Assembly (NCBI GenBank): GCA_903921365.1
Contig: CAIXPS010000548.1
Location: 1-53,126 of the forward strand
Reading direction: 5' to 3'
Length of the DNA: 53,126 nucleotides
Source of the DNA: an uncultured bacterium
GTDB taxonomy: Bacteria > Chloroflexota > Anaerolineae > J036 > Brachytrichaceae
The position numbers and the translations under genes were made by a program. The notes under the pieces are model-generated. The model was not told where the DNA came from. It searched no databases and saw nothing but the letters and a program-made list of their open reading frames with translations. Shown here one piece after another: positions 51,271-53,126 of the stretch (the stretch's first letter is position 1; each line of letters starts with the position of its first letter).

Positions 51271-52302
51271 ATGATTCAGCAAGCAATCGCGAAGTTATTC
51301 AATCGGCAATCACTGTCAGCCGAGGAAGCCGAAGCGGCTATGGACGAGATCATGACCGGCGGCGCCACCCCGACGCAAATCGGCGCCTACCTGGCTGCCT
51401 TGCGCCTGAAGGGCGAGACGCCCGATGAGATTGTCGGAAGCGCGCGGGCCATGCGCGCAAAGTCACTCAAGATACACACCCAGCAAACCCTGCTGGTCGA
51501 TACCTGCGGCACCGGCGGGGATCGGTCTGGAACATTCAACATCAGCACCACAGCCGCCTTCGTCGTGGCAGGCGCCGGCGTGGCAGTGGCAAAGCATGGC
51601 AACCGCGCGGCATCGTCACAGTCGGGCAGCGCAGACGTGCTGGTTGCACTGGGCGTCAATGTCACACTCACACCAGAACAGGTGGGGCACTGTATCGACG
51701 AGATCGGGATTGGCTTTGCCTTCGCCCCAGTGCATCACCCCGCCATGAAACACGCCGCCGGCCCGCGACGCGAAATCGGCGCGCGCACGATCTTTAACAT
51801 CCTTGGCCCGCTTACCAATCCCGCAGGCGCCACACGCCAGCTTCTCGGGGTGTTCGATCCAGCGCTGACCGAGATGATGGCGACCGTTCTCGGCGATCTG
51901 GGCGCGGAACATGCGTTGGTCGTCAGCGGCCCGGAAAAAGTGGATGAACTCACCACCACCGGGTTGAACAAGATCAGCGAATTGCAGAACGGGCGGGTGA
52001 CCACCTACGAACTGGATGCGACCCAGTTTGACCTGCAAGCGTCCACGCTGGTGGATATCGGCGGCGGCACGCCTGAGTTCAACGCTTCGATCACGCGCAG
52101 CATTCTGGAGGGCAAAGCCACGCGCGCGCGCCACGATGTCGTGGTGCTAAATGCCGGCGCAGCGCTGTACGTATCGGAGGCAGCCAGCGACCTGCGCGCA
52201 GGGATCGAGATGGCGCAGGAATCAATCCGAAATGGGAAAGCGCTCGCGAAACTTGAGAGCCTGGCCGCACTTACGAACAAGATGGGCGCGCCCGCCGTAT
52301 AA
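51271..52302 (+). CDS. trpD: Anthranilate phosphoribosyltransferase
   Basis: 343 residues. VDTCGTGGDRSGTFNISTTAAFV is the PRPP-binding GTGGD motif; VAKHGNRAASSQSGSADVLVALG and GFAFAPVHHPAMKHAAGPRREIGARTIFNILGPLTNPAG are the family's anthranilate/PRPP site. It is the last trp gene here: trpC, trpF, trpB and trpA do not follow, only 590 bases of non-coding DNA. No terminator was found after it. Confidence 0.96.
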   Translation: MIQQAIAKLFNRQSLSAEEAEAAMDEIMTGGATPTQIGAYLAALRLKGETPDEIVGSARAMRAKSLKIHTQQTLLVDTCGTGGDRSGTFNISTTAAFVVAGAGVAVAKHGNRAASSQSGSADVLVALGVNVTLTPEQVGHCIDEIGIGFAFAPVHHPAMKHAAGPRREIGARTIFNILGPLTNPAGATRQLLGVFDPALTEMMATVLGDLGAEHALVVSGPEKVDELTTTGLNKISELQNGRVTTYELDATQFDLQASTLVDIGGGTPEFNASITRSILEGKATRARHDVVVLNAGAALYVSEAASDLRAGIEMAQESIRNGKALAKLESLAALTNKMGAPAV

Positions 52303-52404
52303 GACGGCACGGTAACAACTACAACAATGCTTAAAGTCGCTGACCTGATTTTCGCACACAAAACGTCACATCGCACTGCCATTTTGGAATGTGCGATAGG
52401 CCGA

Positions 52405-52418
52405 ATTTCGCGCGAAAT
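52405..52418. promoter_or_regulatory. Perfect 14-base palindrome (possible operator)
   Basis: ATTTCGCGCGAAAT reads the same on both strands. It could be a binding site of a dimeric regulator. No promoter was found close to it and no regulator gene is adjacent. Confidence 0.3.
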
Positions 52419-52586
52419 ATGGGGATATGATTTGGCGTTTGTCGTCATGAGATGACGCGCAACCACGAATCAGTCTCCGGCATCTGAATAACGTTTATGA
52501 GAAGCACCCAGAGCGGAACGGCGCGCATGACGAGTTTCGAACTATCGAATATGTAATTGCGCGCCGTGTAGTTTCGTGGTAGGTAA

Positions 52587-52770
52587 CGGCCGGGATGAAG
52601 CATTGCCAGATACATCACGGCGCACATGATTCCTGTGGGCAATGCTGTCATCCCTACAATGACCGGATGAGACCACCGCATCCGTTCCGTTCCGGTCATC
52701 GTAGGGGTGATAGCATTGCCCATCGAAACGCAATCGACACAATATGTCATGGCAATGCTTCACCCGGCCG
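52587..52770. repeat. Symmetrical 184-base inverted repeat
   Basis: The outer arms (52587-52607, 52751-52770) differ by one base in 21. The inner arms TGGGCAATGCT... (52637-52667) and their partner (52691-52721) match with three changes, two of which would still pair as G-T. A central loop of 23 bases separates them. Within each arm the 8-base unit GCATTGCC (52600, 52713) faces GGCAATGC (52638, 52751) across exactly 30 bases, so either one long hairpin or two short ones can form. No transposase or target duplication is seen; it may be a MITE-like or structured RNA/DNA element. Confidence 0.8.
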
Positions 52771-52893
52771 ACGTTTACACGAATGTTACTGAGTTTTAAC
52801 CACTGGACGAGTTGGGTCTTGTGACCTTCAGCACCGCGCGTCGTCTCGGTAAGCGCCAAATGTAAGCGACATTGGCCTACCGCCTCAAAACGC

Positions 52894-53126
52894 TCAGGCT
52901 TTCAGTTGGCCGATTGTCTGCTCGATCAACCCGACGGCGTCGCGCAAGGTGCTGACGTCAAACGAGAACTTGGCGCCCGCCGTCTGGTAGAGCTGCGACA
53001 GCGTGACAGTGCCGCCTAATGACAACGCCTGGCGATACTGCTTCACCGCATTGGCCTGATTCTGCAACGAGTTGCGCCACACCTGCACCGCGCCAAGCTG
53101 GGCAAGTCCGTACTCCACATAGTAAA
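52894..53126 (-). CDS. pepF: Oligoendopeptidase F family (M3) protein, C-terminal part only
   Basis: 77 codons of the C-terminal end, cut off by the window. YYVEYGLAQLGAVQVWRN is the very typical end of M3 oligoendopeptidase F, and ALSLGGTVTLSQLYQTAGAKFSFD with LRDAVGLIEQTIGQL completes it. The zinc HExxH lies outside the window. A cytosolic peptide-degrading metallopeptidase. Confidence 0.85.
   Translation of the reverse strand, partial: YYVEYGLAQLGAVQVWRNSLQNQANAVKQYRQALSLGGTVTLSQLYQTAGAKFSFDVSTLRDAVGLIEQTIGQLKA

Follow-up and report, generated by a model that had tools for sequence, protein, structure and literature searches.

A probable inverted dimer of RAYT-linked, GTAG-tagged palindromes between a trpD-like gene and a peptidase gene in an uncultured Anaerolineae bacterium

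A 184-base stretch between two convergent genes of an uncultured Anaerolineae bacterium carries the octamer GCATTGCC four times, in alternating direction and with equal spacing within pairs. What produced this arrangement? An initial annotation had considered a mobile MITE-like element, a bistable RNA and a protein-binding array. We conclude with high confidence that the feature is an inverted dimer (BIME), with its GTAG feet facing, of a GTAG-tagged REP that RAYTs probably mobilise. The stretch lies near the end of the window, by which we mean the whole 53,126 nucleotides analysed (contig C548 of a 6.88-Mb assembly in 603 contigs). Genomes are given as G numbers and contigs as C numbers; G000 is the genome of the window.

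Two inverted units in the trpD/peptidase gap

The features of the locus are as follows.

51271..52302, plus strand: trpD-like gene (anthranilate phosphoribosyltransferase; 343-aa ORF; Pfam Glycos_transf_3 and Glycos_trans_3N), the upstream neighbour, converging on the repeat
52592..52657, minus strand: REP unit W1, GTAGGGATGACAGCATTGCC + 30-nt loop + GGCAATGCTTCATCCC (59.8 bits with covariance model R1)
52600..52607, plus strand: first octamer, inner arm GCATTGCC of W1
52638..52645, minus strand: second octamer, inner arm GCATTGCC of W1
52654-52657, read on the minus strand: GTAG foot of W1
52658..52700, no strand assigned: 43-base linker between the GTAG feet of W1 and W2
52701..52766, plus strand: REP unit W2, GTAGGGGTGATAGCATTGCC + 30-nt loop + GGCAATGCTTCACCCG (62.6 bits with covariance model R1)
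52701-52704, plus strand: GTAG foot of W2
52713..52720, plus strand: third octamer, inner arm GCATTGCC of W2
52751..52758, minus strand: fourth octamer, inner arm GCATTGCC of W2
52894..53126, minus strand: 3' end of an M3-family oligoendopeptidase gene (open ORF that runs off the end of the contig), converging on the repeat

The octamers are as the annotation had described them. They lie at 52600(+), 52638(-), 52713(+) and 52751(-), and within each pair exactly 30 bases separate one from the other. Its estimate of arms matching over about 53 positions was if anything low, the 184-base stretch aligning to its own reverse complement with 71% identity. Eight-base matches as such are not unusual in the window (6, against 5 expected). 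The inverted repeat far exceeds chance: the RNA fold of 52580-52777 reaches -108 kcal/mol (z -11.2; 0 of 200 shuffles as good), and the DNA fold of 52587-52770 has a z of -10.4. Both of the structures that had been proposed, one long stem or two hairpins (about -17 kcal/mol each as DNA), are predicted by folding. Folded alone as DNA, W1 is a hairpin with one bulged base (z -4.3) and W2 a hairpin with a z of -4.7. The ends of the linker, ATGACCGGATG and TCCGGTCAT, are inverted as well, and TCCG(A/G)TCATC is seen again ahead of the foot in several other copies. Since the window holds two inverted units, each with its own loop, both the equal spacing and the long stem are explained. The 30-base spacing corresponds to the length of the repeat's conserved hairpin loop and not to the built structure of which it had been taken as a sign, and the long stem is the product of two copies in inverted orientation.

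The genomic setting bears on whether the pair might be a functional RNA that serves both neighbours, trpD and the peptidase gene, as a bistable switch, an attenuator or a bidirectional terminator. The stem is strong and includes a few G-U pairs, and it sits between convergent genes, a common location for REPs (PMC3733652). Against such a role, a scan of 52200-53000 gave no intrinsic terminator (a hairpin followed by a T run), and the curated covariance models of Rfam gave no match to the feature up to E 1. The trpD and peptidase genes are 591 bases apart in the window, whereas G003 and G004 have the same pair nearly end to end with the element absent; the peptidase neighbour in G003 matches TIGR02289 slightly below its cut-off. 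Other copies of the repeat adjoin unrelated genes or lie in frame within genes. We therefore regard a functional RNA as very unlikely, and the annotated bistable RNA has no support, the long stem being just two inverted copies of a repeat that elsewhere occurs alone, otherwise paired or within genes. Nothing indicates a local function at trpD for the window copies. The arrival of the pair between the trpD and peptidase genes was probably a near-neutral insertion, which may have some effect on mRNA 3' ends.

A clean empty site at the trpD/peptidase junction was considered and rejected: the whole spacer differs, the gap in the relatives is short and the junction is unreadable. Separately, a 3-kb contig (G000:C21:1-1589) starts inside W2 and runs on into the peptidase gene. 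It is near-identical to window 52732-53126 (99% over the first 89 bases) and represents a second copy or a strain variant; the assembly thus forks at the repeat.

The repeat family and its conserved pairing

The unit consensus is GTAGGGGYGAYAGCATTGCC, a 28-31 nt loop and then GGCAATGCTTCRCCCC, with an alternative ending in which the tail is longer (GGCAATGTGGCTC(G/T)GCACRCCCC). Units measure about 66 nt (63-73 nt) and, as single strands, form a hairpin of 15-17 bp with GTAG at its 5' foot; the stem has one bulged base in many copies. The annotation had suggested searching the genome and its relatives, and doing so with this region returned 32 matches spread over many contigs of the same genome. 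With copies also seen by covariance model in all five members of the genus, the sequence is neither unique nor unconserved. A strict core pattern, GCATTGCC-N27-33-GGCAATG with its CACATTGCC variant included, occurs 24 times in the genome (pattern scan, places counted from lists) and 0 times in the reversed control. By the coordinates listed, 13 of the 24 strict copies lie <=250 bp from another. A covariance model built from 35 aligned units matched 39, 68, 15, 48 and 9 times in the five genus genomes, counts in which most palindromes scored on both strands. In some members of the family and class the model also picked up related palindromes; these keep GTAGGGGCGAAGC but differ in the inner arm (GCATCGCC, GCACCGCC, GCATTTCC, GCATTGGC). 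The G, A and G of GYAG are invariant across the 35 units, which were picked with GYAG, and copies found without that condition mostly carry GYAG too.

A covariance analysis, also proposed earlier, bore out the stem. Among 25 related sequences, 98% of paired cells pair and 10 of 15 pairs have changed on both sides, a result matched by 0 of 500 shuffles. Between the orthologous copies in HypF of G000 and G001, one pair has changed in a compensatory way (GGGGCGCA/TGCGCCCC versus GGGGCGAA/TTCGCCCC). Pairing, rather than the octamer sequence, is what is conserved. An array of four GCATTGCC sites built for a protein that binds duplex DNA would fit the four identical octamers, their alternating orientation and their 30-base spacing. 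In related copies, however, the octamer changes together with its partner arm, single two-arm units are common, and every copy has a loop of about 30 nt, whether it stands alone, is otherwise paired or lies within a gene. We consider such an array, one of the annotation's suggestions, hardly credible. Covariation alone does not distinguish a hairpin from paired terminal repeats.

RAYT genes linked to the repeat

Terminal repeats are what a classical MITE would require. Under that explanation the GTAGGGGCGAAGCATTGCC arms are the terminal inverted repeats of a DDE transposon, moved in trans by cut-and-paste with target-site duplication. The near-perfect symmetric ends GTAGGGGCGAAGC...GCTTCGCCCCTAC of many copies agree with it, as does a locus on C474 where, in a span of 714 bp, a gene has an arm at either end in the manner of terminal repeats. 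The check for target-site duplications that the annotation had called for found none, however, in 32 elements with both feet defined (mean match 1.56 versus 1.58 expected, longest 3). The C474 gene encodes a Y1 RAYT and not a DDE transposase, the units have a GTAG foot, and linkage to RAYT genes extends across a RAYT clade. A classical MITE is accordingly improbable. Of the earlier label 'mobile MITE-like', the parts that stand are that the element is dispersed, probably mobile and non-autonomous; it lacks target-site duplications and groups with GTAG REPs and RAYTs instead of classical MITEs.

Initial searches with PF01797 led to Y1 transposases at loci without this element, and a RAYT protein query then found linked ones. 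In the class relative G037 (C12), elements that match the model lie on either side of a RAYT ORF, and a third element is in frame within the gene just past the HUH motif, between HUH and Y. Several RAYTs were found in the window's own genome by searching with a RAYT of the G037-type clade. GTAGGG palindromes occur within 500 bp of 17 of 26 loci of this clade versus 0 of 21 other PF01797 (Y1-transposase) loci, in an exact-arm scan that leaves out C474 and C112. NCBIfam RAYT scores are 59-68 bits, with a curated cut-off of 80. In G001, the genome with the most copies, no RAYT of this clade was found in the 75%-complete assembly.

The intact RAYT gene on C474 (193 aa from its ATG) has just one arm on each side, GTAGGGATGTGCCGAGCCACATTGCC on the left and loop + GGCAATGTGGCTTGGCACATCCC on the right, which differ at 1 of 23 positions; no complete unit flanks it. 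On C112, a close paralogue of this RAYT begins beside a full unit. C474 can be read as a gene-carrying parent of the repeats or as a normal REPtron that lost its inner arms by deletion. We favour the latter, with the deletion between short repeats such as TGCACGAAA. The motifs of the C474 protein are NHIH, WQ and YILANP (HUH-Y distance 81 aa), and those of a same-clade RAYT on C110 are NHIH, WQ and YIENNP (77 aa). RAYTs of subclass 2.4 have NH[IFV]H, WQ and YIxNNP and a long HUH-Y distance (median 88 aa; PMC6006769).

By analogy with these enzymes' studied relatives, the RAYT would cleave and mobilise the repeat. A RAYT/TnpA-REP enzyme would recognise single-stranded DNA by its GTAG foot and hairpin, cut it and rejoin it nearby; units would thereby be copied or moved round the genome without target-site duplication. 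TnpA-REP cleaves single-stranded REPs and requires GTAG and, in E. coli, the bulge (PMC8266576), although the enzymes of that study, from E. coli, Stenotrophomonas and Marinomonas, belong to groups 2 and 3 and not to subclass 2.4.

Several neighbouring repeats of other types were also seen. A second palindrome type, GTAGGGGCAATCCCTTGCGGTTGCCCC, adjoins the RAYT genes of G000:C474 and G000:C112 on one side of a linker. The RAYT of G000:C110 is flanked by GTAGGGGCGAACCCGTGTGTTCGCCC, which has about a dozen loose genome copies, and GTAGGGGATGACCCACGTGTCATCCC. Two IS200-like Y1 transposases (G000:C505 and G000:C397), one with an in-frame TGA, lie beside GCGCTTTCAGCGCG / AACCGGCTTTCAGCCGGTT type repeats. 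Other Y1 transposase genes (G003 C194, G004 C217 and G004 C330) are closely flanked by palindromes that lack GTAG, for example CTCCGAGTTCT...AGAACTCGGAG and ATTCCCGGAATC. An autonomous element between the copies on G003 C41 was rejected as a candidate; the ORF there is ATPase-like by eye and encodes no transposase.

Copies within protein genes and comparison with known REPs

Repeat copies lie in frame in HypF of G000 and G001 as inserts of about 22-23 residues (SRGAALPAKPGITETSWQCCAPT in G000), at a loop that has no insert in several relatives and in PDB 3vth. HypF of G002, G003, G004 and G011 has other inserts at the same loop. An in-frame copy in HsdM of G001 appears as a gap relative to 3khk, and one in HsdS of G003 follows the first specificity domain. 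Some insertions seem to break genes: a related element (G004:C236 1169-1231; inner arm GCATTGCC/GCAATGC) is found in a VOC/bleomycin-resistance-like gene, and past the element the C-terminal part of that gene is no longer recognisable. Long ORFs over many other copies were discounted as in-gene copies, being antisense or starting after the element. HypF (G000 C460; G002, G003, G004 and G011) also has further in-frame inserts at tolerant loops. Some are coded by short tandem motifs, e.g. CAATCTCCAATC (NLQSPISNL) and GACTTCTGACCTCTGG, and the same two loops have been hit repeatedly across species.

The repeat is a new family of a known kind, the GTAG REPs, as judged against the families of PMC3733652 (Di Nocera) by their description and not by their 24 printed consensuses. 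Those families, whose hosts include Chloroflexi, likewise have a GTAG (or GCAG) foot and a palindromic stem, are dispersed and mostly intergenic, frequently form inverted dimers 20-100 bp apart, include some copies within ORFs and are linked to RAYTs. Their stems are mostly 6-9 bp, in contrast to 15-17 bp here, and the loop here is long (28-31 nt). A unit of 63-73 nt with such a loop is outside the REP norm of 20-40 bp and a short loop, which we do not treat as excluding a REP since both PMC3733652 and PMC6006769 also describe REPs that are long and loops that are long. The TnpA-REP subclass 2.4 / RAYT group 4 REPtrons (PMC6006769) share long REPs, G-C pairs at the stem foot, double-foot GTAG...CTAC, REPs in frame between HUH and Y of the transposase gene, and the HUH and WQ motifs. 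C474 differs in having YILANP instead of YIxNNP, and this likeness is judged on RAYT motifs and not on a tree. E. coli REPs/BIMEs with TnpA-REP are alike in GTAG foot, bulged stem and inverted dimers, and unlike in the sequence and length of stem and loop and in RAYT subclass. Rickettsia palindromic elements (RPE) are also palindromes inserted in frame in unrelated conserved proteins, but RPE-4 and RPE-6 are CGTC-tagged with no known transposase (PMC3733652), whereas the repeat here is GTAG-tagged and RAYT-linked.

The C474 gene between two arms suggests a more speculative possibility, which we think doubtful: that the dispersed palindromes derive by internal deletion from a RAYT-carrying unit and are its ends, RAYT and REP having once moved as one true transposon, and that the family, its sequence being frame-compatible, has repeatedly supplied inserts that proteins tolerate (HypF, HsdM, HsdS, the RAYT itself).

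The repeat adds to the GTAG REPs a long-loop family with strong stem covariation, and the C474 RAYT with its element is a concrete candidate enzyme-substrate pair in one genome. The family is notable mainly for its few copies in frame within protein genes, and those in HypF, HsdM and HsdS extend the list of proteins with palindrome-coded inserts.
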